Of a DNA stretch of 60,966 bases, positions 2,455 through 53,679 are shown one piece after another. The notes under the pieces are model-generated. The model saw only the letters and a list, made by a program, of their open reading frames with translations, made no database searches and was not told the DNA's origin. The DNA lies in contig CAJXMH010000017.1 in the NCBI GenBank assembly GCA_913056345.1, positions 1-60,966 of the forward strand. The letters run 5' to 3'. The translations under genes and the position numbers were made by a program. Origin of the DNA: an uncultured Flavobacteriales bacterium. Its GTDB lineage: Bacteria; Bacteroidota; Bacteroidia; Flavobacteriales_E; Vicingaceae. The first letter of the stretch is position 1; every line of letters starts with the position of its first letter.

Positions 2455-2468
2455 AGATCACAAATTTG

Positions 2469-2540
2469 TAGCCCCGCCAGGAATCGAACCTGGATCTAAA
2501 GTTTAGGAAACTTCTATTCTATCCGTTGAACTACGGGGCC
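2469..2540 (-). tRNA. tRNA-Arg (anticodon CCT)
   Basis: A complete 72-nt cloverleaf on the minus strand. The acceptor stem GGCCCCG/CGGGGCT begins with a G-U pair, and the discriminator is A. The D stem is GTTC/GAAT, and the anticodon stem GAAGT/ACTTT carries the loop TTCCTAA (CCT, reading AGG). The variable loop has 4 nt and the T arm is CCAGG-TTCGATT-CCTGG. The 3' CCA is not encoded. It sits between the SPOR gene and the GH113-like lipoprotein gene, all on the same strand. Confidence 0.95.
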
Positions 2541-4532: not shown

Positions 4533-4556
4533 GATTTATTAGAAGCAAACTAGCTT

Positions 4557-7646: not shown

Positions 7647-7657
7647 AATAAATAAGA

Positions 7658-9037
7658 ATGCAGCAAGAAGCAGCGATTAGAAAACCCTTAATACTAGGAG
7701 AAAAGACCTACGGTCAGATCACGGAAGACGTGATGGCTCCTGTAGTTGGCAAAGCAAATAAATCATGGTGGATCGTCTTTGGTATTTCAGCAGTAATGGC
7801 ACTCTGGGGTATTGGATGTATCCTCTATCTTTTAGGAACAGGAGTCGGTACATGGGGCCTTAACAAAACAGTCGGTTGGGCTTGGGATATCACCAATTTT
7901 GTTTGGTGGGTAGGTATCGGCCACGCCGGTACATTGATCTCAGCAGTACTTTTGTTATTTAGACAAAAATGGAGAATGGCAATCAACCGCTCTGCGGAGG
8001 CAATGACCATTTTTGCTGTAATGATGGCAGCGGTTTGGCCTGGTATCCACATGGGTAGAATTTGGCTAGCTTATTTTGTTTTCCCACTTCCAAACCAGTT
8101 TGGATCACTTTGGGTTAACTTTAACTCACCTCTGCTTTGGGACGTTTTTGCGATCTCTACTTATTTCTCAGTATCGCTTGTCTTTTGGTACATTGGCTTA
8201 ATTCCAGACTTTGCTACTATTCGTGATAAGGTAACCCAAACAGTTCCTAAGAAAATATATAGCCTGTTGGCCTTTGGTTGGACAGGTAATGCAAAGGCTT
8301 GGAACCGTTTTGAAGAGATTTCTTTGGTTTTAGCTGGTTTAGCAACTCCACTAGTATTCTCGGTGCACTCTATCGTAAGTATGGACTTTGCCACATCAGT
8401 TATTCCGGGTTGGCACACCACAATCTTCCCTCCATACTTTGTTTCTGGCGCAGTTTTCTCAGGATTCGCCATGGTTCAGACCTTGCTCATTATCATGAGA
8501 AAAGTAATGAACCTAGAAAGCTACATCACCATTAAACATATTGAATACATGAACATTGTAATCATTGTTACAGGTTCAATTGTTGGGGTGGCTTACTTAA
8601 CAGAGCTGTTTATTTCATGGTACTCAGGAGTTGAATATGAGGCATACGCTTTCATTAATAGAGCAACAGGTCCTTATGCATGGTCATATTGGATCATGAT
8701 GTCATGTAATGTTATCTCACCACAGATGTTTTGGTTTAAGAAGTTGCGAACAAGCATCATGTTTACTTTCTTCATGTCGATCATTGTGAATATTGGTATG
8801 TGGTTTGAGCGTTTCGTGATTATTGTAACTTCATTACATAGAGATTATTTGCCTTCAAGTTGGACCATGTTTCACCCTACTTTTGTAGATATTGGATGTT
8901 TTATTGGTACAATTGGAATATTCTTCGTCCTTTTCTTATTGTTTTCTCGATTTTTCCCGGTGCTACCTTTAAATGAATTGAAAACAATATTGAAATCATC
9001 TGGAGAGCAGTACAAAAAAGTAGAACAAGAACATTAA
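7658..9037 (+). CDS. actC: Alternative complex III subunit ActC (NrfD/PsrC-like quinol module)
   Basis: A 459-aa integral membrane protein of the NrfD/PsrC family with about ten hydrophobic helices. Motifs include WWVGIGHAGTLISA and WPGIHMGRIW in the first half. In alternative complex III this subunit forms a quinol-binding site facing the ActB iron-sulfur chain. The gene starts 11 bases after actB and ends 10 bases before actD, fitting a stoichiometric complex made from one transcript. The C-terminal 30 residues are polar and probably cytoplasmic. Confidence 0.95.
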   Translation: MQQEAAIRKPLILGEKTYGQITEDVMAPVVGKANKSWWIVFGISAVMALWGIGCILYLLGTGVGTWGLNKTVGWAWDITNFVWWVGIGHAGTLISAVLLLFRQKWRMAINRSAEAMTIFAVMMAAVWPGIHMGRIWLAYFVFPLPNQFGSLWVNFNSPLLWDVFAISTYFSVSLVFWYIGLIPDFATIRDKVTQTVPKKIYSLLAFGWTGNAKAWNRFEEISLVLAGLATPLVFSVHSIVSMDFATSVIPGWHTTIFPPYFVSGAVFSGFAMVQTLLIIMRKVMNLESYITIKHIEYMNIVIIVTGSIVGVAYLTELFISWYSGVEYEAYAFINRATGPYAWSYWIMMSCNVISPQMFWFKKLRTSIMFTFFMSIIVNIGMWFERFVIIVTSLHRDYLPSSWTMFHPTFVDIGCFIGTIGIFFVLFLLFSRFFPVLPLNELKTILKSSGEQYKKVEQEH

Positions 9038-9047
9038 TACGCTAATA

Positions 9048-9575
9048 ATGGCAAACGATAAAGTTTTATATGCGACATTCGACGATGACACCATTTTGCT
9101 AAATGATGCAAAGAGTCTCGTTTCGAAAGGAGTTTACATCCGCGATGTGTTTTCTCCGTTTCCTATCCATGGTATTGACCCTGTTATTGGAATTAAGCAG
9201 ACCCGTTTAGCAATTTGCGCCTTTATATATGGCTTAATTGGTTTAACACTTGCCCTTGCAGGAATGTATTATTTCATGATCGTGGATTGGCCTATGAATA
9301 TCGGTGGAAAGCCAAATGATTTCTTTTACCAAAATATTCCGGCCTTTGTTCCAATCACCTTTGAATTTACGGTGCTATTGGCAGCGCACGGAATGGCTTT
9401 GACCTTTTTTATTAGAAACTGGACGCTGCCTGGAATCAAAGCAAGGAATCCATACCCTTACACTACTGATGATAAATTTGTGATGGAGATTCATCCGGCT
9501 GACAGCCAAATGTCTGAAGAAGAGGTAAAGGAATTACTAGATCAAACCGGAACGATTAAAGTAGAAGCAAGATAA
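9048..9575 (+). CDS. actD: Alternative complex III subunit ActD (DUF3341)
   Basis: A 175-aa protein of the DUF3341 family. It has a soluble N-terminal part of about 60 residues (YATFDDDTILLNDAK onward) and two membrane helices, roughly LAICAFIYGLIGLTLALAGMY and FVPITFEFTVLLAAHGMALTF, then a charged C-terminal tail. ActD packs against ActC in the complex and binds no cofactor. No other role is known, so the call rests on family similarity and its fixed place between actC and actE. Confidence 0.93.
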   Translation: MANDKVLYATFDDDTILLNDAKSLVSKGVYIRDVFSPFPIHGIDPVIGIKQTRLAICAFIYGLIGLTLALAGMYYFMIVDWPMNIGGKPNDFFYQNIPAFVPITFEFTVLLAAHGMALTFFIRNWTLPGIKARNPYPYTTDDKFVMEIHPADSQMSEEEVKELLDQTGTIKVEAR

Positions 9576-9585
9576 TTTGGACAAT

Positions 9586-10254
9586 ATGAAGAGTATGAAA
9601 AAAACATTCAATTATAGTTTTGCCATCACCGTGGGTTTGGTTTTTACCATGTTCTCATGTGATGATCCAAACAGTCCCGGAGTTGAATACATGCCTGACA
9701 TGTATCGCTCTCCTGCAATTGAGGTTTATGTGGATTATGAATTTCCTGATTCCTCTACTGCTAGATTAACCCCTGAACATGCTATTCCGAGAGGATATAA
9801 ACCTTATCCCTATCCAAATTCCACTGAGGGTTTTGAATTGGCTGGTGAAAATCTATCTAACCCGCTGCATCTAACTGAAAAGACAATCAAGGAAGGAAAG
9901 GCGCTTTATAATTCATTTTGCGCGCACTGCCACGGTAAGAAAGGGAAAGGAAAAGGCTCTATCCAGAACGCTATTTACGGTGCTGTTCCTTCTTACAGTG
10001 ATACCCTACCAAATAGAAGAGGAAATCGTTCTATGAAAGAATTAAAGGAAGGGCATATTTATCAAGCCATCATGTATGGGTTAAATGCAATGGGTCCACA
10101 CTCTAGCCTAATTAGGGAAAGGGATAGATGGAAAATTGTAGCTTACGTACAGACTCTTCAGGGTAAAGATCCTTTAGATATGCAGCAAGATAAAATGCAA
10201 GAGACTAAAGAAGAAAATGAAGATAGCAACGAAGAAGTGGCTAAATTAAATTAG
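9586..10254 (+). CDS. actE: Alternative complex III subunit ActE (monoheme cytochrome c lipoprotein)
   Basis: A 222-aa exported cytochrome c. From the ATG at 9586 it has a signal sequence with a lipobox-like MFSC (Cys25), so it is probably a lipid-anchored electron carrier. A TTG at 9577 would add three residues, and an ATG at 9595 would remove three. One heme site, CAHCH, is at 112-116, followed by a lysine-rich KKGKGKG stretch and a later Met (NAMGPH) that could be the axial ligand. In the complex ActE carries electrons from ActA toward the terminal oxidase. The C-terminus is an acidic, disordered-looking tail. Confidence 0.92.
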   Translation: MKSMKKTFNYSFAITVGLVFTMFSCDDPNSPGVEYMPDMYRSPAIEVYVDYEFPDSSTARLTPEHAIPRGYKPYPYPNSTEGFELAGENLSNPLHLTEKTIKEGKALYNSFCAHCHGKKGKGKGSIQNAIYGAVPSYSDTLPNRRGNRSMKELKEGHIYQAIMYGLNAMGPHSSLIRERDRWKIVAYVQTLQGKDPLDMQQDKMQETKEENEDSNEEVAKLN

Positions 10255-10273
10255 GAATAATAACTGTATACCG

Positions 10274-11464
10274 ATGAATTTTACTTTCACCAAAAATGCA
10301 CGTATAACTTTCGCAGTTCTAATGCTCATAGGCGTTATAGCTGGGGTATATGGCTTCATGACAGACGATACTGCTCACCATAATCGATTTTGGGCTAATT
10401 TATTGATCAATGGCTTCTTTTATTTTGCGATTAGTTTAGGAGCGTTATTTTTCTTGGCTCTGCAATATGCAACTGAGGCTAGTTATATGGTAGTACTCAA
10501 AAGAGTCATGGAAGGAATATCCCAATATATCTATGTTGGTGGCGCTGTTTTGATTCTTGTTTTCTTAGCAGGGACATTACATTGGCATCATATCTACCAT
10601 TGGATGGATCCTGAGGTATATGATCCTACTTCAGAGCATTATGATAAGATAATTGCCGGCAAAGCTGCCTATTTGAACCAACCTTTCTTTTGGATTAGAA
10701 CGATTGTTTACCTAGGAGTTTGGATGTTTTTCGCCCGCCTATTTAGAAAACGTTCTCTTTTGGAAGATCAGCAAGGAGGAACGAAAATCCACTTTAAGAA
10801 TATGGGTATGGCTGCAATTTTCCTCGTATTTTTTGCAGTAACATCCTCTACTGCTTCTTGGGATTGGATCATGTCGATAGACACGCACTGGTTTAGTACC
10901 TTATTTGGTTGGTACGTATTCTCAGGTATGTGGGTAAGTTTCATGATTGTTCTAGTACTGCTTACAATTTGGCTTAAAGGAAAAGGGCACTTGCCTCAGG
11001 TTAACCAAAGTCACATTCACGATGCAGGAAAATGGATGTTTGCAATCAGCTTTTTATGGACTTACCTGTGGTTCTCTCAGTTTATGCTGATCTGGTACTC
11101 AAATATCCCAGAAGAGGTGACCTATTACATTACAAGAATAGAAGAATTTAAATGGTTGTTCTTCGGTGTTTTCTTCACAAACTTTTTATTTCCAATGGTT
11201 ATCTTAATGTCAAGAGATGCGAAGCGACAAATTGGCTATTTGATTACAGTGGGTGTAATTATTTTTATTGGACATTGGTTAGATGTGTATTTAATGATTG
11301 TACCCGGAAGTGTTGGTCACCTTCACTTTGGATTTATGGAAATTGGAATGTTCTTAGGATTTCTTGGCTTGTTCTTATATACGGTGTTTAACGCCTTTTC
11401 AAAAGCGCCATTGGTGGTTGAAAACCATCCATTCCTAGAAGAGAGTGAACATTTACATATTTAA
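10274..11464 (+). CDS. actF: Alternative complex III subunit ActF (membrane quinol:cytochrome c oxidoreductase subunit)
   Basis: A 396-aa membrane protein with about ten helices, related to ActC/NrfD. Features include the His-rich loop TLHWHHIYHWMDPEVYDP, the TASWDWIMSIDTHWFSTLFGWY segment and the C-terminal GSVGHLHFGFMEIG. ActF completes the membrane arm of alternative complex III beside ActC and is not thought to carry hemes. It sits 19 bases after actE and 28 before coxB, which couples the complex to its terminal oxidase at the operon level. Confidence 0.94.
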   Translation: MNFTFTKNARITFAVLMLIGVIAGVYGFMTDDTAHHNRFWANLLINGFFYFAISLGALFFLALQYATEASYMVVLKRVMEGISQYIYVGGAVLILVFLAGTLHWHHIYHWMDPEVYDPTSEHYDKIIAGKAAYLNQPFFWIRTIVYLGVWMFFARLFRKRSLLEDQQGGTKIHFKNMGMAAIFLVFFAVTSSTASWDWIMSIDTHWFSTLFGWYVFSGMWVSFMIVLVLLTIWLKGKGHLPQVNQSHIHDAGKWMFAISFLWTYLWFSQFMLIWYSNIPEEVTYYITRIEEFKWLFFGVFFTNFLFPMVILMSRDAKRQIGYLITVGVIIFIGHWLDVYLMIVPGSVGHLHFGFMEIGMFLGFLGLFLYTVFNAFSKAPLVVENHPFLEESEHLHI

Positions 11465-11492
11465 AGACTTATAAAAGAAAAAACGTATTAGC

Positions 11493-12545
11493 ATGATGAA
11501 TTTGTTAATTATAGCGGCGATAGTGCTTGGAATCATTGCTTTATCCAAAGTGGTTAAAGTTCTTGAAAAGGCAAGCACTGTTAGAGGAGAAAACACTTAC
11601 ACGCCAACGGATAAAGAGAATAAAACGCAGGCACTTTTAATGCCAATCTTTCTCTTGGTTTATTTCGCCTTTATTGCTTGGCAGTTAGTGGCTTGGGGTG
11701 ACCGTATGCTTCCTATGGCTGCTTCAGAACATGGGATAGTGATTGATAAGCTAATGGATACTACTTGGATCATCATCACGCCTGTTTTCATTGTAACTCA
11801 TATCCTTTTATTCTATTTCGCTTGGAAATATGCCTATGACAAAAACCGCAAAGCACAATTTTTTGCGCATAGCAACAAATTGGAAATGCTTTGGACCGCT
11901 ATTCCCGCTTTAGTGCTTTTGATATTAATCCTTTACGGGCTTAGTATTTGGAATGATACCATGGAGCCTCTAACAGCAGAAGATGAACCAGTAGAAATTG
12001 AGCTTTACGCGAGACAATTTGACTGGACTGCTCGCTATCCTGGGGAAGATGGGAAGTTTGGCACAGCAGACGTGAGACTAATTGAAGGAATAAACATGCT
12101 AGGGCTTGATTCTACGGATGAAAATGCCTGGGATGACAAATACGTAAAAGCAGAATTTGTTATACCCGTAAATAGACCGGTACAGTTTTATTTCAGAGCA
12201 CAAGATGTAATTCATAGTGCATTTATGCCACACTTTAGGGCGCAAATGAACTGTGTACCTGGAATGACAACACGTTTCAATTTTGTTCCAACCATGACTA
12301 CTGCAGAAATGCAAGAACACTTGGGAGATCCCGAATTTCATTATCAGCTACTTTGCAATAAAATTTGCGGCGCTGCCCATTACAATATGGGAATGGAAAT
12401 TAAGGTAGTGTCTGAAGAGGAATATATCGCATGGTTAGCAGAACAAAACGAGTTTTTAAAAGTTGAAGGTAATACTAATACAACTGCACAGACTGAAAGT
12501 AATTCACAACCAAGCCAAGGGGCGGAAGAGGTTTCGTCTTTATAA
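11493..12545 (+). CDS. coxB: Cytochrome c oxidase subunit II
   Basis: A 350-aa subunit carrying the binuclear CuA centre, which receives electrons from cytochrome c. Four hydrophobic segments precede the periplasmic cupredoxin domain, at about residues 3-20, 48-68, 91-112 and 134-152. The two extra N-terminal helices are common in Bacteroidota. CuA ligands are visible as C288 and C292 (CNKIC), H296, M299, and an upstream His in DVIHSAFMPH. The C-terminus is a Ser/Gln/Glu-rich tail. It starts at ATG 11493; a second ATG directly follows. Confidence 0.96.
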   Translation: MMNLLIIAAIVLGIIALSKVVKVLEKASTVRGENTYTPTDKENKTQALLMPIFLLVYFAFIAWQLVAWGDRMLPMAASEHGIVIDKLMDTTWIIITPVFIVTHILLFYFAWKYAYDKNRKAQFFAHSNKLEMLWTAIPALVLLILILYGLSIWNDTMEPLTAEDEPVEIELYARQFDWTARYPGEDGKFGTADVRLIEGINMLGLDSTDENAWDDKYVKAEFVIPVNRPVQFYFRAQDVIHSAFMPHFRAQMNCVPGMTTRFNFVPTMTTAEMQEHLGDPEFHYQLLCNKICGAAHYNMGMEIKVVSEEEYIAWLAEQNEFLKVEGNTNTTAQTESNSQPSQGAEEVSSL

Positions 12546-12573
12546 TTAAGTGATTATTAAAAAAGATTAGATA

Positions 12574-14337
12574 ATGTCAGCAACAGCACATCATCAGGAC
12601 AACGACTTTTTGTTCAAGTACATTTTTAGTACCGATCATAAAATGATCGCAAAGCAATTCTTTTTAACAGGTTCATTTATGGGACTGATAGGAATGCTTA
12701 TGTCATCCATTTTTAGGCTTCAATTAGGTTATCCAGGAGAAAGTTTTCCTTTCCTAGAATCGTTTATGGGCGGATGGGCTCCAGATGGTGTTTTGTCACC
12801 TGATAAGTATTTGGCCTTGGTAACACTTCATGGAACCATAATGGTTTTCTTCCTCTTAACTGCAGGTTTGAGTGGTACCTTTAGTAATTTGCTTATTCCA
12901 TTGCAGCTTGGAGCTCGAGATATGGCTTCTGGTTTCATGAATATGCTGTCATATTGGTTCTTCTTCTTATCAAGCTGTGTAATGATTGCTTCAATTTTTG
13001 TTGAAGGTGGACCTGCATCAGGTGGTTGGACGATTTATCCACCACTAAGTGCTTTACCTGAAGCAGTCCCTGGCTCAGGAATGGGTATGACTCTATGGAT
13101 CATTTCTATGGCATTATTCATTGTATCATCACTCTTAGGAAGTTTGAACTACATTGTTACAATTTTAAATCTTAGAACGAAAGGGATGACGATGACAAGA
13201 ATGCCGCTTACTATTTGGGCCTTCCTTGTAACAGCAATTTTAGGTGTTCTCTCTTTCCCTGTTCTATTCTCAGCGGTATTGTTATTATTCTTTGATAGAA
13301 GTTTTGGAACAAGTTTTTACTTGTCTGATATTTACATCGCAGGTCAGGCTTTAGAAGTAGAAGGTGGAAGCCCTATTTTATATGAGCACTTATTCTGGTT
13401 TTTAGGACACCCTGAGGTTTACATTATCTTATTACCGGCACTTGGTATTACTTCTGAGGTTGTAGCAACTAATGCAAGAAAGCCAATCTTTGGTTATCGA
13501 GCAATGATTGGATCAATTCTGGCAATTGGGTTTATCTCATTCCTCGTTTGGGGGCACCACATGTTCATTACAGGAATGAACCCTTTCCTTGGAGCGGTAT
13601 TTACCTTCACAACATTACTTGTTGCAATTCCGTCAGCGGTTAAGGTATTTAACTATCTGACCACTCTGTGGAAAGGTAACATTCGGTTCACACCTGCCAT
13701 GCTTTTTGCAATCGGTCTTGTATCTACTTTTATTACCGGTGGCTTAACAGGTATCATTCTCGGTGACTCAGCATTAGACATTAATGTTCACGATACCTAT
13801 TTTGTGGTTGGTCACTTCCACATTGTAATGGGCCTTTCAGGTACTTTCGGTATGATTTCTGGTATTTACCATTGGTTCCCCAAAATGTACGGTCGGGTAA
13901 TGAACAAGAGTTTAGGATACATACACTTTTGGGCAACAATAGTCACAGCATATGGTATATTTTTCCCTATGCACTTCCTTGGGCTTGCCGGTGTGCCTAG
14001 GAGGTATTACGCTAATACTGAGTTTCCGATGTTCAATGAAATGTATGACATAAACGAATTGATTACGGTTTTTGCTATAATAGCAGTAGCTTCTCAAGGG
14101 ATTTTTATATTCAATATTTTCTACAGTATGTTTAAAGGGCAGAAGTCTCCACAAAACCCATGGGAATCTACAACCCTTGAGTGGACTACCCCTGTTGAGC
14201 ATATCCATGGTAACTGGCCTGGAGAACTTCCCGAAGTTCATAGATGGGCTTATGATTACAGTAAGCCAAACATTGAGGAGGATTTCGTACCTCAAACTGT
14301 ACCGCTTAGAGAAGGTGAGGAAGACGAAAATCACTAG
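12574..14337 (+). CDS. coxA: Cytochrome c oxidase subunit I (aa3 type)
   Basis: A 587-aa catalytic subunit with at least 12 membrane helices that reduces oxygen to water and pumps protons. The active-site motif GHPEVYI holds the CuB His, the channel Glu and the cross-linked Tyr, which marks an A1-type oxidase. VWGHHMF supplies two CuB His, and HDTYFVVGHFHIVMG supplies heme a and a3 ligands. It is the last gene of the act/cox run and is followed by a strong terminator. Subunits III and IV are not in this window. Confidence 0.97.
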   Translation: MSATAHHQDNDFLFKYIFSTDHKMIAKQFFLTGSFMGLIGMLMSSIFRLQLGYPGESFPFLESFMGGWAPDGVLSPDKYLALVTLHGTIMVFFLLTAGLSGTFSNLLIPLQLGARDMASGFMNMLSYWFFFLSSCVMIASIFVEGGPASGGWTIYPPLSALPEAVPGSGMGMTLWIISMALFIVSSLLGSLNYIVTILNLRTKGMTMTRMPLTIWAFLVTAILGVLSFPVLFSAVLLLFFDRSFGTSFYLSDIYIAGQALEVEGGSPILYEHLFWFLGHPEVYIILLPALGITSEVVATNARKPIFGYRAMIGSILAIGFISFLVWGHHMFITGMNPFLGAVFTFTTLLVAIPSAVKVFNYLTTLWKGNIRFTPAMLFAIGLVSTFITGGLTGIILGDSALDINVHDTYFVVGHFHIVMGLSGTFGMISGIYHWFPKMYGRVMNKSLGYIHFWATIVTAYGIFFPMHFLGLAGVPRRYYANTEFPMFNEMYDINELITVFAIIAVASQGIFIFNIFYSMFKGQKSPQNPWESTTLEWTTPVEHIHGNWPGELPEVHRWAYDYSKPNIEEDFVPQTVPLREGEEDENH

Positions 14338-17258: not shown

Positions 17259-17825
17259 TTAATTATTTTCTCCCCATCGATAGCTTTCGCTTTTTAATCC
17301 GATTAAATCGACTATTCGACTTACTACCGTTTGAGCAAGTTCTTCAATGTTGCTTGGGTTAGAATAGTAGGAAGGACTAGCAGGACAGATGATTCCGCCG
17401 GCTTCTGTCACCGCTTTCATATTGTTAATATGGATAAGGCTTAAGGGTGTTTCTCGAGCAACAAGGATTAGTTTTCTCCTTTCCTTTAGGATCACATCAG
17501 CGGCTCTGCTTGTTAGATCATTAGAAACTCCGCTAGCGATGCGTGCCATAGTGCCCATAGAACATGGAACTACAACCATTTTGTTGTACATAGCAGAACC
17601 CGAGGCAAAAGGCGCATTGAAGTCTTGTTTGCCATAAAAAGTAAAAGGATACTTTTCATAGTCAGTATTACCCAATTCGGTTTTCCAAACATACTTGGCG
17701 TTATCCGACATCACCACTCCAACCGCTTCGATCTGATCATGCATTTTTTCTAGCTGGTCAAGTAATAGCTTGGCATAAATAGAACCCGAAGCTCCAGTTA
17801 CTGCCACCACGATCTTATGTTTCAT
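17259..17825 (-). CDS. ubiX: Flavin prenyltransferase UbiX
   Basis: A 188-aa flavoprotein that attaches a dimethylallyl group to FMN to make prenyl-FMN, the cofactor of UbiD-type decarboxylases. Motifs: N-terminal flavin loop AVTGASGSIYAKLL, PCSMGTMARIASGVSNDL, and the RETPLSLIHINNM region near the prenyl site. No UbiD is in the window. Its ATG overlaps the stop of the upstream barrel gene (TAATG), so the two are translationally coupled. Confidence 0.95.
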   Translation of the reverse strand: MKHKIVVAVTGASGSIYAKLLLDQLEKMHDQIEAVGVVMSDNAKYVWKTELGNTDYEKYPFTFYGKQDFNAPFASGSAMYNKMVVVPCSMGTMARIASGVSNDLTSRAADVILKERRKLILVARETPLSLIHINNMKAVTEAGGIICPASPSYYSNPSNIEELAQTVVSRIVDLIGLKSESYRWGENN

Positions 17826-18454
17826 TATTTGTTCCCTCCGATAAATTCATAACGCAACGTAAAGCTTACGTATTGGTGTAACATGCCTGCATCAAAGATC
17901 CAAGAGGCACCGCTATCGTGATCTCTAACAGGTAAAACGGACATGTTATAACGCCAATTCATGATTATGTTTTCTGTGAAATTAAAGTTCAAACCTAACA
18001 ACGCTCCAAGATCATAAGTTCTAAATGTATTGAGCTCAGCAGGTATTTCAAATGGCCCATCCTGGTTTTCAAGATACTGGTCTACTAACTGACCGTAGTA
18101 CATACCGCCTTCAAAAGTAAAGCGGTTGTTTTTGTACCTAGCCATGATGGGAACCTCTACGTAATTCAAACGCATTAAGAAAAAGTCAGTGTCTCCTTGC
18201 TCTGTATCAGGGTTTTCTCTGCTCCCTTTTTGGCTGTAATTAATCTCAAATTGGAGGTTTATTTTTTGAGAGACATCTATATCCGAATAAACACCGACAA
18301 TTAAGCCCGCTTTGTTGAACCCACCATAACCATCGCCACTTACTTGAGAGGCATTAACCCCTGCCAAAATACCGGCATTAAAACTTTGCGTCTTGCCTAA
18401 AAAACAAATACTAAACAGAAAGAGGAAGAATAATATTTTTAATGAAGGGTTCAT
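17825..18454 (-). CDS. PorT-family-like outer-membrane beta-barrel protein
   Basis: A 209-aa exported protein with a signal peptide (MNPSLKILFFLFLFSICFLG...) and the architecture of OMP_b-brl_2/PorT-type barrels. It opens with AGILAGVNASQVSGDGYGGFNKAG, a typical first hairpin, followed by strands such as LQFEINYSQKGSRE and a C-terminal strand ending in aromatic residues (YVSFTLRYEFIGG). Function unknown. I do not claim it is PorT of the type IX system, because this barrel family is very large. It is translationally coupled to ubiX, probably reflecting operon packing rather than a shared pathway. Confidence 0.75.
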   Translation of the reverse strand: MNPSLKILFFLFLFSICFLGKTQSFNAGILAGVNASQVSGDGYGGFNKAGLIVGVYSDIDVSQKINLQFEINYSQKGSRENPDTEQGDTDFFLMRLNYVEVPIMARYKNNRFTFEGGMYYGQLVDQYLENQDGPFEIPAELNTFRTYDLGALLGLNFNFTENIIMNWRYNMSVLPVRDHDSGASWIFDAGMLHQYVSFTLRYEFIGGNK

Positions 18455-18489: not shown

Positions 18490-19479
18490 TTATCTTGGAG
18501 TAAAATAAGCAGCATTAGCTTGCATTACTTCATAAGAACTTTGATCATTATCGAAAATGAAACAAACTACTTCAAGGTCCTGTGGTTTCCAGTTTGGATC
18601 TACTGTTGTAACATACTGATAGGACAGCGTATCACCAACCTGCCAATTTGGAAGGTTGAGTCCCCAGGTTCCGTTTACTACTTTCCTTAAAGTGTGTCGG
18701 TGATTGTAAAACTCAATATCCACTGGATTAGAAAAGGCATCCTTTTGCCAGTCTACAATATTATCTTCTTTCAAAAACACTTGTAAACTGAAAGATTCGC
18801 TGCTAGGTACAAGTGGAATAACTTGAATTTGAGCCCTCACGACATTCGCATTGTTAGAATAATAAGAGGTTAGTTTAAGTTCAGCAATTGGAGAATCTGC
18901 TGCAATGGAATTTATATCTGCTTCCCAACCTGCATTTCCCGTTGACCTTAATCTACTTACCATGCCTCTTGGATAAGCGTTTCCGGGATTAAACTCTTGC
19001 TGGTAAAGTTCACCATGTCCCCCCTCGACTCTAAAGTCAGTAGTGAACTTGTCACCTGATTGTCTGGGTCTTGCAAAACCTCCTGCATGTATGGCAATGG
19101 GTACGAGTTGCTCCTTGAAAATGGTATCAAGTCGTATAATTTCTTTAGTTCCTAATGGACAGAAGATACACTCATGACCGGTAAACTCTTCCAAAGTGAT
19201 AAATCGCCTATTTGAGTTATCAGGTGCAGTTGAAATAGCCCAAGTATTGTTTAAAATAAAACTAATCAAACTATCAGTGTCATCTAAATTAAGGGCTTGA
19301 TCTATTTTGTAGTCAGTATCTGCAAAAATTCCTAAGGAGTCAAATAGTCGAGCAGAATCTGCACTAATTGCTCCAATTTGCAAATTGTCTTCTGCATTTG
19401 CAGGTATTGGATCATCTATTACCTCGCAGGCTGAAAAAGACAATAGGGCAATAAAAATGGTAAAAGCAAATCGCATCAT
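18490..19479 (-). CDS. Omp28-related lipoprotein with thioredoxin-like CxxC
   Basis: A 329-aa Omp28-family protein. The signal ends in a lipobox with Cys18 (FSACE), so it is anchored in a membrane. The family's thioredoxin-like part begins near residue 92 (RRFITLEEFTGHECIFCP), with redox-type cysteines C104 and C107 (CIFC). It continues with IAIHAGGFARP and a cis-Pro-like YPRGMV, then a C-terminal beta-rich domain. It is the last gene of a three-gene run after tlpA-like and DUF6029 genes, with a 12-base gap to the latter. A role in disulfide handling of envelope or surface proteins is inferred. Confidence 0.85.
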   Translation of the reverse strand: MMRFAFTIFIALLSFSACEVIDDPIPANAEDNLQIGAISADSARLFDSLGIFADTDYKIDQALNLDDTDSLISFILNNTWAISTAPDNSNRRFITLEEFTGHECIFCPLGTKEIIRLDTIFKEQLVPIAIHAGGFARPRQSGDKFTTDFRVEGGHGELYQQEFNPGNAYPRGMVSRLRSTGNAGWEADINSIAADSPIAELKLTSYYSNNANVVRAQIQVIPLVPSSESFSLQVFLKEDNIVDWQKDAFSNPVDIEFYNHRHTLRKVVNGTWGLNLPNWQVGDTLSYQYVTTVDPNWKPQDLEVVCFIFDNDQSSYEVMQANAAYFTPR

Positions 19480-19491
19480 CTCTCAAAGGTA

Positions 19492-21165
19492 TTAAAAGCT
19501 ACTGGTTATTGACAAAAATACTCCGCTTGAAGCAGGCACAACTCGACAAACACCCCCGACGCAGAAAATACCTGCCCTTTGACGTCCGTAACTTAAGGTT
19601 ATTCTATTTCCTTTATCGTTGTAGCCGAAGGATCCGTTATAATAATGTACCCTTTTGCTTGGATCGGGATTACCATAGTTATATTGATCAAGAAAAGCTA
19701 CAAACCAATGCGGGGAGTAACTGTATTCAATCAGTAAGGTAGCCCAATCGCCTTGGTCCTGCTCGGTAATTAGAAATTGAGCCTCAGTTCTAATGGAATT
19801 TCTAATATCAAACTTGTAAGTTACATCTGCTATTCCAATGTTGGCATATATTTTAGGTGCCCCGGGTTTTCCTTCAATCACATCTTGGTCGTAAACCAAG
19901 TTTGCATAAGTGAACCTACCTTTTACTTTAGAGGAGAACTTTTTAGTCAGCATCACATTGAAGTCCTTGAAATAGACCTCACCAACATCAAAGTAGTCAG
20001 CTTCGTACCCTAAGCGCTTCCCATCTTCATCATTAAGTCTGGTTGTATCTAAATTGTTGGCAGTAGAGTAATTGAGTTGAATGTCCATTCCTCTTTTTCC
20101 TCCGAGTAGGGTGCCCTTTTTAAATTTATAAATCAAATCTGCTTGGAATGCCATTTCACCATTTAATTGAGTGGCGTATGGGTATAAAGTTGCTAATAAG
20201 TTATACGTGTGCTGTTTTGTGAGTGCAGGGATAAAGTTGATCAACAGATTTTGTAATGACTCACCCCGATCTGATCGGAAACTCATGTTGTCATTTCGTT
20301 TGGCAGCAAGTACGATTCCGAGTCCTTTTTGACTGTATGAGGTTTGGATAAACAGAGCTTCTCCAGGTCTGTAAATAAAGTTGTTGTCAGCCGAAGGGTC
20401 ATTTACTTTGTAAGCATATTCCGTATTCAGATTAAACCTTCCCCTTGTTATATTGGCTCTACCTCCAAAGAGGGCAACATTTTCAGGTAATACAAAACGG
20501 GAGTCTTGGTCAGCCTGATACTTGCTAACTGCGCTTGCACCTAATAGAATTCGGGTTTTACTTTCTTTTAATCTTGGGATAAGGTCATTCATGTATACAT
20601 CAGCATCTAAACCTCTTACAATCCCTTCTCCATAATCAAAAAAGAGGCGTTGTTTTCCCGTTAGACCTGTAATTTCAACTCCCTTTAAAGGTCGATACTT
20701 GATTCTAATACCATCCATGGCATTGTCATACCCCAAACCTCTTTCTTCATAAGTTCTAAATGCAAGTCCATTTCCAAATTGCTCATAAAAATTACCAACG
20801 GTAATTGAGAATTGCTTTTGGTCAAAAGAGGCGTATCGATATGGAATTCCGTTACCTTGATAACCCTCAGGAAAACCCAATAGAGCATTCATGTAACTTT
20901 CGTAACGAAAGCCTGCAGAAAATCCCCCATTCGTGTAAACCAAGTTTAAAAATCCATTGGATAATATTCTTTCGGGTACTTCCTCGGCTCCAATGATGGT
21001 GTCTTCTTGATAATACTGCATATCAAGCTGAAAATTTCCTCTAATCTTTCCTTTGCTCATTACCTGATCAAAACTCTGGGCTTTCACAGAGCCAGAAAAA
21101 ATTATGAAGACAGTAAGTATAAATAGTTTAAAACTATTTCCCTTTCTCAATAGAGTATGTGTCAT
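19492..21165 (-). CDS. DUF6029-type outer-membrane protein
   Basis: A 557-aa exported protein with a signal peptide ending about residue 30 (SGSVKAQ). The rest is long alternating beta structure with many Tyr/Phe/Gly strands (GFRYESYMNAL, ITVGNFYEQFG, ATLLIEYSYSPHWFVAF), consistent with a large barrel of 18-22 strands. It resembles the Bacteroidota family DUF6029. Two cysteines near the C-terminus (FCVGGVCR) are unusual for a barrel and could form a disulfide. It lies between the tlpA-like gene (40 bases upstream) and the Omp28 gene (12 bases downstream), so these three act as a unit. Function not established. Confidence 0.8.
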   Translation of the reverse strand: MTHTLLRKGNSFKLFILTVFIIFSGSVKAQSFDQVMSKGKIRGNFQLDMQYYQEDTIIGAEEVPERILSNGFLNLVYTNGGFSAGFRYESYMNALLGFPEGYQGNGIPYRYASFDQKQFSITVGNFYEQFGNGLAFRTYEERGLGYDNAMDGIRIKYRPLKGVEITGLTGKQRLFFDYGEGIVRGLDADVYMNDLIPRLKESKTRILLGASAVSKYQADQDSRFVLPENVALFGGRANITRGRFNLNTEYAYKVNDPSADNNFIYRPGEALFIQTSYSQKGLGIVLAAKRNDNMSFRSDRGESLQNLLINFIPALTKQHTYNLLATLYPYATQLNGEMAFQADLIYKFKKGTLLGGKRGMDIQLNYSTANNLDTTRLNDEDGKRLGYEADYFDVGEVYFKDFNVMLTKKFSSKVKGRFTYANLVYDQDVIEGKPGAPKIYANIGIADVTYKFDIRNSIRTEAQFLITEQDQGDWATLLIEYSYSPHWFVAFLDQYNYGNPDPSKRVHYYNGSFGYNDKGNRITLSYGRQRAGIFCVGGVCRVVPASSGVFLSITSSF

Positions 21166-21205
21166 TTTTTGGGGTAGTAGAGAAGTTAAGGCTAATAGAA
21201 AGGAG

Positions 21206-21721
21206 CTATTCTATTGTTTCTCCATCAGCCAGCTTTTGAACCAATTCAAAAAGTTCATATTCGTCACCTTCTGAGTATGAATTATGTTGCCAAACGATTT
21301 GGCCATTTCCATCAACCAAGAAAGTATGGGGTACATTATTTACGCCTAATGCCCTTTTAAAATCACCATTTGGATCTAAATAAACATCGTACTCCCAACC
21401 TTTTCCATTAACGTAGGGAGCCACTTTTGCAATGTTTCGTGTATCGTCAATTGATACTGCAACAAGTTTTACACCTGTTTCTTCTACCCACATATCATAC
21501 ATCTCAGTTATGTTGTTCAACTCTCTTTTACAAGGACTGCACCAAGTGGCCCAAAAGTTTATGATAATGGGATTACCATCATTTTTAAGATCAGAGGTGT
21601 TAAAGGTAGTGCCATTTAAGTTTTGGATATCCACAGCAGGAATGCTGTTGTTTTCAGTTTGGCTCATGGCAGTGAAAAATACCGAGCTAAAAAGGGTTAA
21701 GAGTAAAGACTTTAAATACAT
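21206..21721 (-). CDS. TlpA-family thiol-disulfide oxidoreductase
   Basis: A 171-aa exported thioredoxin-fold protein. The signal peptide ends about residue 20 (FFTAMSQ). The redox motif WATWCSPC places catalytic cysteines at 61 and 64. The cis-Pro loop is NNVPHTFLVD, and the family insert SIDDTRNIAKVAPYV is typical of TlpA/ResA proteins. It probably reduces or transfers disulfides in the periplasm. As first gene of the run with DUF6029 and Omp28, it suggests a redox relay toward the outer membrane. Divergent from the T9SS cargo gene at 21841, sharing a 119-base promoter region. Confidence 0.92.
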   Translation of the reverse strand: MYLKSLLLTLFSSVFFTAMSQTENNSIPAVDIQNLNGTTFNTSDLKNDGNPIIINFWATWCSPCKRELNNITEMYDMWVEETGVKLVAVSIDDTRNIAKVAPYVNGKGWEYDVYLDPNGDFKRALGVNNVPHTFLVDGNGQIVWQHNSYSEGDEYELFELVQKLADGETIE

Positions 21722-21805
21722 ATTATTTTTATTTAAGGTTTGCTAAATTACAAATTCATTAACATAGGTAAACAATATCTGAGCCAAGATTAATTCTTGT
21801 TTTAT

Positions 21806-21813
21806 TATATTTG
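21806..21813 (+). promoter_or_regulatory. Probable -7 promoter element of the T9SS cargo gene
   Basis: TATATTTG is a full match to TAnnTTTG and lies 27 bases before the ATG at 21841, giving a short leader. I see no TTG at the ideal -33 spacing, so confidence is moderate. Confidence 0.45.
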
Positions 21814-21840
21814 TAGATTAAGTCTTTTAAATAAATTCTT

Positions 21841-22620
21841 ATGAAGAAAAATATATTATTTACTTTCTCTCTAATTATCTTAGGTGCTTCTAGCTTATTT
21901 GCACAGAGCATCTTAATCAATAACAAAGCAGGTCAAAATGTAATTGGTGACACAATTACCTTTAATCATGTTGTAGACCCTACAAATACCTTTGAGTTTT
22001 TTGAGAACAAGCAATTTGTTGACATAATCAATAACAGTGGGAGTCAAATGACTGTTGGTTTAATCAGAAAAGAGGTTTCTGTTGTTTCAAATACATATGA
22101 TTATATGTGCTGGGGAGCGCAGTGTTTTGGAGAAGTTTTAGCAGGGACACGTCCTGTTTGGGATGTGAACGATTCTGTTATAGTAGCCAATAACGATACC
22201 GCTTCTGGACTTTTAGGTGGGTTGGTAATTTACCATCGCCCTAATGGTAATGCGGGAACTTCAATATATGAGTACGAGCTTTATGATAGAGCCAATAGAA
22301 GTGTGTCCTCAAGCATATTTGTGAAACTTGAAACTACTATTTCCGTTGGTTTGGATGAAGCAGCTAAGCGAGTAAGTTTTGAGGTTTACCCAAATCCGGT
22401 TGAAAATGAGTTGCGATTAAATTTCCCAAACGGAATAGATCAAACTGACATTGAACTAATCATGCATGATTTAACCGGGAAAGAAGTAAAAAGAGTGAAT
22501 GCACAGCAAGGCGTTGAATTACAAATTTTGAATGTTGATGATTTGAAATCTGGACTCTATTTTATCAGCATGGTGAAAGAGGGAGAAAGACTTCAATCAA
22601 AGCGATTTGTAAAGCTTTAA
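21841..22620 (+). CDS. Secreted protein with T9SS type A sorting domain
   Basis: A 259-aa exported protein. The signal peptide ends at FAQ (residue 22). A beta-rich body of about 150 residues carries a close cysteine pair, C90 and C95, in MCWGAQCFG. The C-terminal 80 or so residues are a type IX sorting domain, opening with FEVYPNPVENELRLNF and continuing DLTGKEVKRVNA, LKSGLYFISM and KRFVKL. It should be exported by Sec, passed through SprA, and attached to the surface or released. The cysteine pair and the divergent TlpA/Omp28 operon suggest, without proof, that it is a redox client. Confidence 0.85.
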   Translation: MKKNILFTFSLIILGASSLFAQSILINNKAGQNVIGDTITFNHVVDPTNTFEFFENKQFVDIINNSGSQMTVGLIRKEVSVVSNTYDYMCWGAQCFGEVLAGTRPVWDVNDSVIVANNDTASGLLGGLVIYHRPNGNAGTSIYEYELYDRANRSVSSSIFVKLETTISVGLDEAAKRVSFEVYPNPVENELRLNFPNGIDQTDIELIMHDLTGKEVKRVNAQQGVELQILNVDDLKSGLYFISMVKEGERLQSKRFVKL

Positions 22621-22644: not shown

Positions 22645-22674
22645 AAAAATGGGAAGCAAGTGCTTCCCATTTTT
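22645..22674. terminator. Bidirectional terminator between T9SS cargo and sirtuin genes
   Basis: A 13-bp stem AAAAATGGGAAGC / GCTTCCCATTTTT with loop AAGT. A/T runs on both sides let it serve both convergent genes. It overlaps the sirtuin stop codon by two bases. Confidence 0.88.
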
Positions 22675-26317: not shown

Positions 26318-29300
26318 TTGGTTAAATATAATTGTCATATTAACAGACTATTGATTTTAGTTGGTCTGCTAGGGTGTTTCTCTCGCTCTGCTTCCGGCAA
26401 GTCTAGAACTTTGCCGGATTTTGACTTTTATAAGGGTCCAAATCTTCATGTACTAGCCGATTCCACGGAAGACGATTCCAATGATGTGAAACTTATATAT
26501 CCCTTTGATGACGAAAGCGATGAGGGGATGAATCAAGGAATGAGTCCGTTATTCTTTGAAGACCCTTCAAACGTTAACAAAGAGTTCAAGTACGATCCAG
26601 AAACTGGAGAGTATAACTATTACCAGCAAATTGGTAATATAAACTACCGAGACCCTGCTCAAATGAGCCTTGATGAGTATTTAAAATACGACATGGAGCA
26701 AAGTCAGCGTGACTTTTGGAGGAAAAAGTCTGCTGCAGAAACGCTTAATGAATCTCAAGGTTTCAGGCCGCAACTGAATGTAAAAGGTGAATTATTTGAT
26801 AGAATCTTCGGTGGGAATACCATCGACATTCGTCCACAAGGTTCAGCAGAGCTTTCGTTTGGAGTAAACATTGCAAGACGTGATAATCCCATTCTTCCTG
26901 AAAGGCAAAGAAGAACTACCAATTTCGATTTTAATCAAAAGATTCAGCTAAATGTAATTGGAAATATTGGTGAGAAACTTAGAATTCAAACGAGTTACAA
27001 CACTGAGGCAACATTTGATTTTGAAAACCAAACAAAAATAGAGTACACCGGCTACGAGGATGAGATAATTCAAAAGATTGAGGCAGGTAATGTTGCCTTG
27101 CCACTGCAAAGCTCTTTGATTACAGGTAGTCAGACCTTGTTTGGAGTTAAAACTGAACTGCAGTTCGGTCGATTGAGGGTGACCTCCATTTTTTCTCAAG
27201 AAAGGGGTGAAAAAAAAGAAATCAACATTACCGGTGGAGCCCAAGTACAAGAGTTTGAAAAGTCTGCCTCTGAATATGAGGAAAACAAGCATTACTTCTT
27301 ATCTCACCTATTTCGAGAAAGCTACGAAAGAAATTTATCAGACCTTCCTCGGGTTATATCTCGTATAAACATTACAGCAGTTGAGGTATACATTACCAAT
27401 ACGCAGGGCTCATTTAACAATACGCGAAATATTTTAGGTTTTACTGATCTTGGTTCTGACCGTAGAATTTACAATCCTCAAGTTGTTTCGAGAGACCCTG
27501 CTTTGCGGGTATCAGACAATAATGCCAATGACCTTTACGCAAATTTAGCAGGGGGCTTTCCCAACGCTGAGCAAATTAGAAGCTTTAATAATGCAGATCA
27601 AGTTCTACAGGCTCAAGGTCTTGAGAGTGGATCAGATTATGAGCGTTTGGAAAATGCTGTTTTACTTTCACCCAATGAATACGTCCTAAACGCTGAGTTA
27701 GGTTATATATCTTTAAATCGCACACTCAATCCGCAAGATGTTTTAGCTGTTTCTTATCGCTACACTTACAACGGAAGAGTCTATCAAGTTGGTGACCTTT
27801 CTACTGATGGAATTGATGGACAGCAGGCACTTTTCTTGAAGCTTCTCAAGGGAACTATTATTGATCCTACTTTACCAAGCTGGGACTTAATGATGAAAAA
27901 CGTTTATTCATTAGATGCCTTTAATGTAAGTCAGGAAAATTTCCAATTCGAGATTTGGTACCTAAACGAAGCAACGGGAGTTGAGATTCCTTATTTTCCT
28001 GAAGGAAGATTTGAAGGTCAGCCATTGATCAATACATTAGGCTTAGATCGAATTTCAGTAGTAAATGAGCCTCAGCCTGACGGAATTTTTGACTTCATCC
28101 CAAATGTGACCATCAATCCTCAAAATGGTAGAATTTACTTTCCCGTGCTGGAACCCTTTGGTTCTTATTTAAAATCACGTTTTAATGATCCTAATTTAGC
28201 ACAGAAATACGCTTACGATTCATTATATACTACCACCCGAATTCTTGCCCAACAAGATGTAGATAAGAACCGATTTACTTTTCGTGGGCGTTACCAATCT
28301 AGTTCGGGTTCTGAAATTTCATTGAACACCTTTAACATTCCCCAGGGCTCTGTAAATGTAACAGCAGGCGGAGCTCAGCTCACAGAAAATGTTGACTATA
28401 CTGTAGACTACAATTTGGGACGCGTGAAAATCTTGAACGAAGGTATTTTAGCTTCGGGTCAGCCAATTAAGGTTACACTGGGAAGCAATTCACTATTTAA
28501 CGTTCAAACAAAAACTTTGCTTGGATCTCGGTTTGACTATCGAATCTCAGAAGATATCAATATTGGGGGTACGGTTCTTAATCTAACAGAACGTCCGCTC
28601 ACTAGGAAGATCAATATTGGGGATGAGCCGATTTCTAACACTGTTGTGGGAATTGATGGAACCTTTAGAACTGAAGCACCAATTTTAAGCCGTGCGGTTG
28701 ATCTGCTTCCGTTTTATTCAACCAAAGAGAAATCGAACTTGACCGTTACTGCGGAAGCTGCCAGATTATTTCCAGGAAATTCTAGAGCCATTACCAAAAA
28801 TGGAATTGCCTACATTGATGATTTTGAAGGTAGTCAAACAGTAATTGATATTAGAGCAGCAAATGCTTGGTATTTAGCAAGTACTCCAGAAGGACAAGAC
28901 GATATTTTCCCTGAAGGAAACCTAAATGGTCGTTTAGACTATGGATTTAACCGCGCAAGATTGGCGTGGTATACTATCGACCCACTTTTCTTCAGAAATG
29001 ATACAAGAACGCCGGGCCATATTCGAAATTCCGATAGCCAGTCTAATAACTTTTCAAGAGAGATTATTGAAACTGAGGTTTTTCCCAATAAAGATCCGGA
29101 TCCCGGTTTAATCAATAACTTACCTACTTTAGATTTAGCCTTTTATCCAAGGGAAAAGGGCCCGTATAACTATGATACTCGAGGTGGATCATTTTCAGCA
29201 GGATTGAATGCTGATGGCTCCCTGCGTGAGCCAAGATCAAGATGGGCAGGAATCATGCGGGAGATTCAGTCTAGTGATTTTGAAGCTTCAAATGTTGAGT

Positions 29301-32300
29301 TTATTCAATTTTGGATCATGGATCCATTCAACGAACAAGATGGAAATCCAAATCACTCAGGAGGAGATATGTACTTTAACATCGGTTCGATTTCTGAAGA
29401 TATCTTGAAAGATTCAAGGAAGAATTTTGAAAATGGTTTTCCGGTAGATGGAAGTAATAATAATACTGATCTTACCATTTGGGGAAGAGTCCCAACTGTG
29501 CAATCAGTGGTGCTTGCTTTTGATAATAATCCTGCATCAAGAGAGTTTCAAGATATTGGGTTAGATGGGCTGTCTGATGCCCAAGAGCGAAATAACTTTG
29601 CCGCATACTTAGACACCCTTGCTACTATCTTGAACCCAGCTGTTTTAAATGAATTTTCAGCTGATCCATCACAAGATAATTACCATTACTATCGAGGTAG
29701 TGACTACGATGCTCAGCAGCTTACTATACTAGAGCGCTATAAAATGTTCAACGGACATGAAGGGAATTCACCCACTGCAGAACAATCACCCGAGGCTTAT
29801 CCCACAGCAGCTACAACCTTACCTGATCAAGAAGATGTAAACAGAAACTTCAACTTGGATCGCACGGAGAGTTACTATCAATATAAAGTGCAATTGAGTC
29901 CACAGGTTTTAAGACCTGAGAATGTTGGGAATAACTACATTACTGATGTAGTAAGAGCTACTAAGAATGTAAATGGAGAAACGAAAGAGGTCAATTGGTA
30001 CCAATTTAGGATTCCTATTCGAGAGCCTGAAAAGGTAATTGGTAATATTCGCGACTTCAAGTCGATTCGTTTCATGCGAATGTTCCTCAGGAATTTTGAT
30101 GAGGAAGTTGTGGTGCGCTTTGCCCGTCTTGGACTTGTTAGGGGAGAGTGGAGAACCTATAACCGAGAAGAAATTCCACCTGGTGATACGCATGGTAGCG
30201 AACCGGGTACTACCACTTTTAACATTGCAGCAGTAAATGTTGAGGAAAATGCCAATCGAGTGCCAATTAATTATACCATACCACCTGATATTGAGCGAGA
30301 GATCGACTTTGGGACGACTAACCTGCGTCAGCTAAACGAGCAATCTTTAATGCTTGATGTGTGTAATTTGCAAGATGGCTTTTCAAAATTCGCTTTCCGT
30401 TATTTGGATTTAGATATTCGGCAGTATAAGCGTTTAAAAATGTTTGCTCATGCTGAAGCAGGTCAACCAGGCGAAGTGTTGAATGATGGGGATGTTTCAA
30501 TTGTATTGCGTTTAGGAACTGATTTTGAAAGCAATTACTATGAATATGAGGTGCCACTTGAAGTAACCCTTCCGGGAGAAAATTCGCCTGAACAAGTTTG
30601 GCCCGAAAGCAACGAAATTGATCTTGAATTTGATAGGTTGATCAACGCCAAGCAGACCAGAAATAGGCAAATTGTCAACCCCTCTTCTGGCGTTAGTGTC
30701 AATCAGATCTTTGAAACAGAAGATGGGAAGAACTTCATTCGGGTTAGGGGTAATCCAAACTTGGCAGAAGTAAGGGTAGTAATGATTGGTGTAAGAAACA
30801 GACGGGGAGGGGCCAACAATCAAAATGATGATGGCTTACCTAAATGTGCCGAGGTTTGGGCTAACGAACTTCGTCTTTCAGACTTTAATAACCAAGGTGG
30901 TTGGGCAGCTCAGGCAAGGGTAAATGCGCAGGTTGCAGACCTTGGAACCATTAACCTTTCGGGAAGTATGAGTACTCCAGGTTGGGGTAGTTTAGAGCAA
31001 AAGCTAAACGAGCGCCAAAGAGAAACAAGGCAGCAATACGACCTTTCTACAAGTCTAGATCTTGCCAAGTTTTTGCCTGAAGCGATCAACCTGAGTATTC
31101 CCATGTATTATTCAGTCTCAGAAAACGTTGTAAGGCCTGAATTCAACCCCTTAGATCCAGATGTTCGCTTGAATGAAATTCTTCGATCCGACGAGTTGAC
31201 CGACGATTATAAAGACAGTATTCGTAAAATAACCGATGACTACACCCGCAGAAGAAGTTTGAATTTTACCAACGTCAAAAAACTACCCGGGCCAAATAAG
31301 AAGAAAAGTAATATTTATGATATTGAGAATTTTTCATTTACCTATGCTTACACAGAAATCTTTCAGCGTGACGTAAATACTAAGTTTGATAGGCAGGAAA
31401 CGTATCGTGGTGCAATTAATTACGCTTTTTCTGGAAGGCCAAAGAATATAGAGCCTTTTAAAGAGTGGGAATTCTTAAAAAACAAGGAAGGGTGGGATTG
31501 GCTGAAAGATTTTAACTTCAATCCAGTGCCCACACAAATTAGCATTCAATCCCTTTTTGATCGGAACTACCAAGAACGACAGGCTAGGAACATTACTTCA
31601 ACCGCCGGTAGTTCCTTTGTTTTTGAATCGCCCCCTTTTTACCAGAAATCTTTTAATTGGAGCAGGCTCTACACCCTTCGACATAATTTAACCCAATCTT
31701 TAACCCTTAACTTCAATGCCTCAAATAGGGCGCTAATTGGGGAGCCTCCCGGTGAAGTAAACCGCAACAATGAAGAGGCTTATGAACGCTTTAGAGAAGA
31801 GGTTTGGCAAAATATTCAGCAGTTTGGAGACAATACCAACTACAACCACAATTTTGATTTAAATTATACCCTACCGCTTAAAAAAATTCCGGGGCTAGAC
31901 TTTATAAACGCTAGTGCACGATACGCTGCAACTTTTGCCTGGGATCTAGTCGGGAATCCTCAAGCAGATACCTCGCTCGGTAGTACAATTCGAAATTCGC
32001 AAACCAAGGGAATACAGGCTAACTTGTCTATGGATTTGCTATATAATAAGTTTCAATATTACAAGGATCTAAAAAATCCAAGAATTGATAATCGCTATAT
32101 CTATAAGGAGGAAGAAGAAGACGAAGAAAAGGGAAAGAAAAAGAAGAAAGAAGGTAAGAATAAGCTTGAATCTATTGAAGAGGAAAAGGAAGGGATTTCT
32201 GATAAGCGAACAGAGGCATTAGAGGAAGAGCCTGATACAACTAAAAAGAAAAAATTCATTCTTCAACGGTATTTAATGGATAATGCCATTTTCGCCTTAA

Positions 32301-53603: not shown

Positions 53604-53676
<73 letters not shown>

Positions 53677-53679
53677 CCT

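Follow-up and report, generated by a model that had tools for sequence, protein, structure and literature searches.

We analysed a cluster of four envelope genes at positions 18490-22620 of a 60,966-nucleotide stretch of DNA (the window) from an uncultured Flavobacteriales bacterium of the Vicingaceae (GenBank assembly GCA_913056345.1, contig CAJXMH010000017.1). Three of the genes run in one direction on the minus strand: tlpA (21206-21721), encoding a 171-residue protein of the AhpC-TSA family (Pfam, E 2.2e-21); a gene for a predicted 557-residue outer-membrane barrel of the DUF6029 family (19492-21165; PF19494, E 4.3e-193 over residues 16-557, 643 bits against a cut-off of 27); and a gene for a 329-residue Omp28-related lipoprotein (18490-19479; PF11551, E 1.5e-17, 64.4 bits against a cut-off of 34.9). 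They are separated by gaps of 40 bases (tlpA to DUF6029) and 12 bases (DUF6029 to omp28). The fourth, a porA-like gene on the plus strand (21841-22620; 259 residues), encodes a cargo of the type IX secretion system (T9SS; Por_Secre_tail PF18962, E 3.4e-12) and diverges from tlpA across a promoter region of 119 bases (21722-21840). An earlier note on this DNA had described this arrangement, together with the cysteine motifs CSPC, FCVGGVC, CIFC and MCWGAQCFG in the four products; the coordinates and the translations bear out both.

Conservation of the gene set

The order tlpA-DUF6029-omp28, on whose co-conservation the earlier note had staked its reading beforehand, is maintained. Among the best 80 of 576 confirmed DUF6029 places (1.18 Mb in all; neighbour counts here and below cover the loci with room for the gene concerned), tlpA is the immediate upstream neighbour of DUF6029 in 66 of 74 loci, omp28 the immediate downstream one in 71 of 75, and both neighbours are present in 60 of 69. 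In these 80 loci, 76 TlpA-profile genes, two of which are longer thioredoxin genes, are found at most 700 bp from DUF6029 against 2 elsewhere; for Omp28-profile genes the corresponding numbers are 74 and 2, a count that excludes the tail-bearing homologues which the profile also took in. Of a wider set of 110 regions drawn with the Pfam model, some of which end at a contig edge, 92 contain a TlpA-profile gene and 84 an Omp28-profile gene no more than 700 bp from DUF6029. PF19494 itself matched in 43 of the 60 relatives and, across the phylum, in 80 of a sample of 296 genomes (78 above the cut-off); the lists from these 296 genomes underlie all cross-tables of DUF6029, SprA and PorA given below. 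Regions were fetched for all but 11 weak members of the 80 genomes with DUF6029 from the phylum-wide sample (ten from family f44 and one from f50) and for all but one (G008, split in two) of the 43 relatives with PF19494. No description of a tlpA-DUF6029-omp28-porA set was found in the literature searched, the coverage of which leaves out most subscription papers; one paper there, PMC9603273, mentions DUF6029.

Cysteines of the three co-directional products

The earlier note had also tied its reading to the conservation of the cysteines across orthologues, and these proved nearly invariant. The DUF6029 protein has exactly two, C535 and C540 (FCVGGVC), in the hairpin between the last two predicted strands. 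Of the 110 Pfam-drawn regions, distant DUF6029 members and the window included, 106 preserve the pattern C-x-x-G-[VI]-C, in forms such as CVGGVC, CTSGIC, CIGGVC and CTNGVC; three of the four misses are broken or truncated frames (L056, L057 and L182) and the fourth (L179) is a match below the Pfam cut-off. In 18 of 18 chosen sequences C535, G537, G538, C540 and R541 are invariant. Because an earlier scan had been seeded in part with the motif C[VS]GG[VI]CR, the conservation could have been an artefact of that scan, an explanation which we rejected on the strength of the Pfam-drawn set.

DUF6029 is the sole Pfam family matched by the barrel protein at E<=0.1, and its sequence matches nothing in the PDB at E<=1. 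An AF2 model of the protein (pLDDT 92.5, pTM 0.85) has 24 strands as counted from DSSP elements. Of the fold matches listed for it, the best are FimD (Z 18.6), AlgE (17.8) and PapC (17.7). According to the model, the 24-strand pore architecture would be common to DUF6029 and the FimD/PapC ushers, from which DUF6029 differs in the lack of a PDB sequence match at this threshold and in a length of 557 residues that presumably leaves no room for the additional usher domains. With both termini in the periplasm and 24 strands, the hairpin formed by strands 23 and 24, with C535 and C540 on it, is predicted to be extracellular, a placement derived from the strand count rather than from the model coordinates. 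The hairpin block has a confidence of 81, below that of the neighbouring blocks, which may reflect mobility.

TlpA has the WCSPC pair (C61/C64) as its only cysteines. It has a signal peptide (by reading), no lipobox, and an AhpC-TSA/Redoxin fold with WCxxC, features by which its sequence would place it among TlpA/ResA-like proteins, and it is predicted to be a soluble thioredoxin-fold protein of the periplasm. Likewise, in the 80 best loci a lipobox-like cysteine was seen in only 1 of 73 TlpA sequences, 61 of which have only two cysteines after residue 30. The AhpC-TSA fold, WCxPC and export signal are common to the TlpA/ResA/CcmG thiol-disulfide oxidoreductases, from which the window protein differs in reaching the curated cut-off of none of the 16 listed NCBIfam models and in having an outer-membrane barrel as its presumed partner.

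The lipoprotein has four cysteines: C18 of the lipobox, C104 and C107 (CIFC), and C306. In an alignment of 48 of the 74 eligible loci plus the window, C18, C104, C107 and P170, the last a possible place of a cis-proline, are invariant (49 of 49), whereas the position of C306 is a cysteine in only 1 of the 49. A profile of the family matches Omp28 of Porphyromonas gingivalis (2r2c, E 2.5e-30), HBP35 of the same species (5y1a, E 2.8e-8) and, weakly, thioredoxins in the PDB. Together with the CxxC and the invariant proline, these matches suggest a thioredoxin fold; a direct hhalign comparison with TlpA is weak (probability 19). For HBP35, thioredoxin activity is reported in the title of a cited paper. 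The window protein differs from both in being a lipoprotein without a T9SS tail and in scoring 121.6 bits against the cut-off of 150 of the NCBIfam model lipoprot_Omp28 (NF033782). Since it passes the Pfam cut-off and falls below the NCBIfam one, 'Omp28-related' is the safer name. An Omp28-related protein is required for trypsin degradation by Paraprevotella according to PMC9477747, which we regard as a hint only.

The divergent T9SS cargo is a PorA homologue

Profile and fold comparisons agree that the divergent cargo is a homologue of PorA. Its product has a signal peptide, a FimH-like immunoglobulin-type (Ig) domain with C90-WGAQ-C95, its only cysteines, and a T9SS type A C-terminal sorting domain that is also recognised by TIGR04183 (39.2 bits, cut-off 23). 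With a profile of the N-domain without the tail, the PorA-N chain 6kjk of P. gingivalis was the sole PDB chain at E<=1 (E 6.8e-4), and the alignment pairs both cysteines of its CFGQC with the CWGAQC pair of the window; hhalign of the porA-like protein against PorA-N gave E 4.6e-5 (probability 68.7, 49 columns). The model (pLDDT 91.9) superimposes on 6kjk with Z 13.1 and a root-mean-square deviation of 2.7 over 128 aligned residues at 14% identity, followed in the list by PorU (Z 10.1) and FimH-type lectin domains (about 9), and a plain Foldseek search placed 6kjk fourth (E 2.5e-6, TM-score 0.63 by target). Profiles were required, in that a single-sequence phmmer search with the N-domain found nothing in the PDB at E<=10, and the printed 6kjk fragment gave 3 weak matches in 395 genomes (E 0.003-0.006), none of them convincing. 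That the cargo profile merely tracks the T9SS tail was considered and rejected, as the PorA-N profiles leave the tail out.

The porA-like gene is the only PorA-N profile match of its own genome at E<=0.1. PorA alignments were made from 33 of the 34 eligible loci plus the window, and then from 29 plus the window, and of the 30 best matches to the family, window included, 29 have the cysteine pair, a count partly favoured by the search because the PorA profile had been built from rows with both cysteines. Two PorA-like genes of other loci (L062 6057-7289 and L143 6866-8350) seem to encode PorA-type domains in two or three copies, with a cysteine pair in every copy.

The P. gingivalis and window proteins have in common the signal peptide, the FimH-like domain, the type A tail, a length of about 250 residues and a cysteine pair at the same place; they differ in that the window gene stands beside tlpA-DUF6029, in the 14% identity over the fold, and in that a role in PorXY-SigP signalling would be putative for the window protein. 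In PMC7712824, PorA (PGN_0123/PG2172) is described as a surface protein upstream of PorXY-SigP that reaches the surface even in T9SS mutants, its deletion in P. gingivalis lowers T9SS expression, and it is confined to Porphyromonas by BLAST. Its authors state that further factors should mediate between surface PorA and PorY of the inner membrane; the main text contains neither 'disulfide' nor 'disulphide'. PG2173 is given as Omp28 in PMC9722745, and the consecutive locus tags PG2172 and PG2173 thus make porA and omp28 neighbours in P. gingivalis also.

Association with PorA, the T9SS and the redox supply

PorA-N was matched in 43 of the 296 genomes across the phylum, and 34 of these 43, the window's genome included, also encode DUF6029, leaving nine PorA-N genomes without a DUF6029 match. 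In 26 of the 34 genomes with both, the two genes are no more than 7 kb apart. Among the other eight, one (G272) has both genes at contig ends, and in two (G268 and G216) porA adjoins a tlpA while DUF6029 lies on another contig. At the locus level, porA was seen in 26 of the 53 named loci with room. The T9SS translocon protein SprA, present in 228 of the 296 genomes, accompanies DUF6029 in 79 of 80; a sprA match falls within 12 of the 80 named loci. In the window sprA (26318-33649, plus strand) lies 3.7 kb from the porA-like gene.

As to the supply of electrons or disulfides, the window's own genome encodes a full-length DsbD of 842 residues, the C-terminal part of which reads as thioredoxin-like, and no VKOR or DSBA match was obtained in it at E<=1e-3. 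This combination leads us to lean towards a reductive or isomerising role, an oxidant of some unknown kind being possible. The genome also encodes a PorX-like protein with a PglZ domain. A 'thiol-disulfide isomerase' appears in the protein table of a study of a Cytophaga porV mutant (PMC8564354), again a hint only.

Fusions, replacements and added thioredoxin-like proteins

One genome carries a natural fusion of TlpA with DUF6029, a single frame on the DUF6029 strand (L038 1030-3030, identical to L194 5939-7939) that encodes 667 residues, with AhpC-TSA at 21-140 and DUF6029 at 158-667 (Pfam) and no inner signal peptide, an architecture that would put TlpA at the periplasmic N-terminus of the barrel. 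In family f44 Omp28 is missing beside DUF6029; in seven of the eight f44 loci fetched (L170, L172-L178) a Redoxin-type lipobox protein stands directly 3' of DUF6029, and a T9SS-like tail is borne by a Redoxin-type protein in seven of the eight. Pfam searches of five f44 proteins found Redoxin in all five and Por_Secre_tail in the three presumed to be tailed, and neither Redoxin gene is present in L171, a locus of another family fetched with them. Finally, a CxxC protein with a T9SS tail is encoded upstream of tlpA in 20 of the 53 named loci with room, 17 of them alongside porA. In Pfam searches with eight of these proteins the tail was found in all, Omp28 in five (four above the cut-off) and Thioredoxin, weakly, in two. 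These swaps of parts, in which the layers are kept, are in our view the strongest argument that what these loci have in common is thiol chemistry in several compartments.

Other features of the window

In the same direction and 3' of omp28 follow a gene for a small barrel of the OMP_b-brl_2 family (17825-18454, minus strand; PF13568, 1e-15), which adjoins omp28 in only part of the related loci, and, as the final gene of the run, the flavin prenyltransferase gene ubiX (17259-17825, minus strand; TIGR00421, 185.8 bits, cut-off 108.9). The latter was matched by tblastn in 19 of the 140 loci L060-L199 and is probably functionally unrelated to the rest of the run. Within the divergent region, TATATTTG at 21806-21813 (plus strand), 27 bases 5' of the porA-like start, fits the Bacteroidota -7 motif, TAnnTTTG, and a sigma-70-like match is found on the minus strand at 21831-21804. 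A terminator-like stem of 13 pairs (22645-22674) separates the porA-like gene from a Sir2 gene. Elsewhere in the window, genes resembling those of alternative complex III and, after them, those of cytochrome c oxidase subunits were read from the translations of 3264-14337 (plus strand), and there are two tRNA genes, tRNA-Arg (cct; 2468-2540, minus strand) and tRNA-Met (cat; 53604-53678, plus strand).

Discussion

The earlier note had seen in this cluster a set of cysteine-bearing envelope proteins spread over several compartments and tied to the T9SS, and conservation supports that view. We propose, tentatively and at slightly less than an even chance, that the cluster is a dedicated module for thiol-disulfide exchange at the outer membrane and surface of T9SS-bearing Bacteroidota, with the PorA-like protein as one client. 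TlpA would act as a soluble periplasmic protein, probably with DsbD to recharge it, and handle the thiols of outer-membrane partners. The C-x4-C hairpin that joins the last two strands of DUF6029 would be redox-active, and Omp28, as an outer-membrane lipoprotein with a thioredoxin fold, would work with that hairpin. The exported PorA-like protein, with the cysteine pair in its FimH-like domain, would be a client whose redox state is set by the module, which in other loci the T9SS-tailed thioredoxin-like proteins would join. A hairpin on the outside, as the model predicts, would fit exchange with Omp28, if the latter is surface-exposed, and with PorA. The individual transfer steps, their direction, for which we favour reduction, and an effect on PorXY-SigP are what we infer.

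Several observations weigh against this proposal. The direct step from TlpA to the barrel is its weak link: as the hairpin is predicted to lie outside, contact with TlpA would have to occur by way of the lumen or while the barrel is being assembled. PorA would not be the only client, given that in 46 of the 80 genomes with DUF6029 nothing matched PorA-N at E<=0.001, and DUF6029 is itself dispensable, being absent from 17 of the 60 relatives (14 of the 51 more complete ones). Five loci (L072, L088, L125, L128 and L131) keep the DUF6029 cysteine pair and have no TlpA-profile gene in the stretch covered, one DUF6029 genome (G286) has no SprA match, and one of the eight tailed CxxC proteins, that of L082, matched no thioredoxin-type family by Pfam. 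The associations of DUF6029 with PorA-N (Fisher test, 9e-15) and with SprA (7e-10) count related genomes as independent. Of the periplasm-to-surface relay of the earlier note, the conserved set of partners has stood; the extracellular hairpin of the model and the genomes without PorA-N speak against the literal route. Its suggestion that the set matures secreted proteins is too general, the cargo being a PorA homologue. We know of no thiol-based electron path across the outer membrane, and none was found in the literature searched; a full relay from DsbD through TlpA and the barrel hairpin to surface thioredoxin-fold proteins and PorA, feeding back on T9SS expression, is in our estimation unlikely.

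It could also be that TlpA and Omp28 serve the barrel alone, making or correcting the DUF6029 disulfide while the protein folds into the outer membrane, no electrons reaching the surface and the barrel being a channel of some other function. DsbA and LptE do likewise for the disulfides of LptD, which is similarly an outer-membrane barrel with disulfide-dependent assembly; DUF6029 differs from it in its single C-x4-C hairpin, predicted to be extracellular, and in having thioredoxin genes in its own operon. Such a maturation role would agree with thioredoxin proteins flanking DUF6029, with a fusion that would place TlpA in cis on the periplasmic side, and with the 61 of 81 DUF6029 proteins that have exactly two cysteines beyond residue 30, an invariant pair there, although that scan was partly motif-seeded. 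It leaves unexplained the T9SS-tailed thioredoxin-like proteins, the linked PorA with a cysteine pair of its own, and the loci in which porA stands beside tlpA with DUF6029 on another contig (L203, L226), and we consider it rather unlikely. That the operon is simply a long-lived assembly of unrelated envelope genes with structural disulfides seems highly improbable in view of the fusion, another thioredoxin-type lipoprotein standing in for Omp28, and the near-invariant cysteines in the partners, even though operons can persist through shared regulation and this one carries ubiX and a small barrel as well.

Two further possibilities, both of which we regard as quite improbable, centre on PorA and on the pore. 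Surface PorA might sense a ligand or a redox state, with DUF6029, Omp28 and TlpA as the missing factors that relay the signal towards PorY; PorA acts upstream of PorXY-SigP and mediators to PorY are expected by the authors of PMC7712824, porA is linked to the module, and the genome has its PorX-like protein, yet DUF6029 is common without PorA (46 of 80 genomes). Alternatively, DUF6029 might be a large pore that exports polysaccharide or PorA itself and is gated or braced by its cysteines. Its best fold matches listed are usher pores and an alginate exporter, a possible polysaccharide role has been suggested for DUF6029-like barrels (PMC9603273), and PorA, whose N-domain resembles FimH, reaches the surface in T9SS mutants. 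However, the usher match is one of fold only, two or three thioredoxin-type genes would be superfluous for a plain pore, and no polysaccharide gene was recognised on reading the translations of 15.0-26.5 kb, no further search having been made.

If the cluster is indeed an exchange module, it would give the uncharacterised DUF6029 family a testable role. For the route from surface PorA to the inner-membrane kinase it offers concrete partner genes and residues, and PorA-type proteins, confined to Porphyromonas according to PMC7712824, are seen to extend to 43 of the 296 genomes sampled across the phylum. In a genome without a DSBA or VKOR match, a surface redox module would, if true, be new envelope biology.

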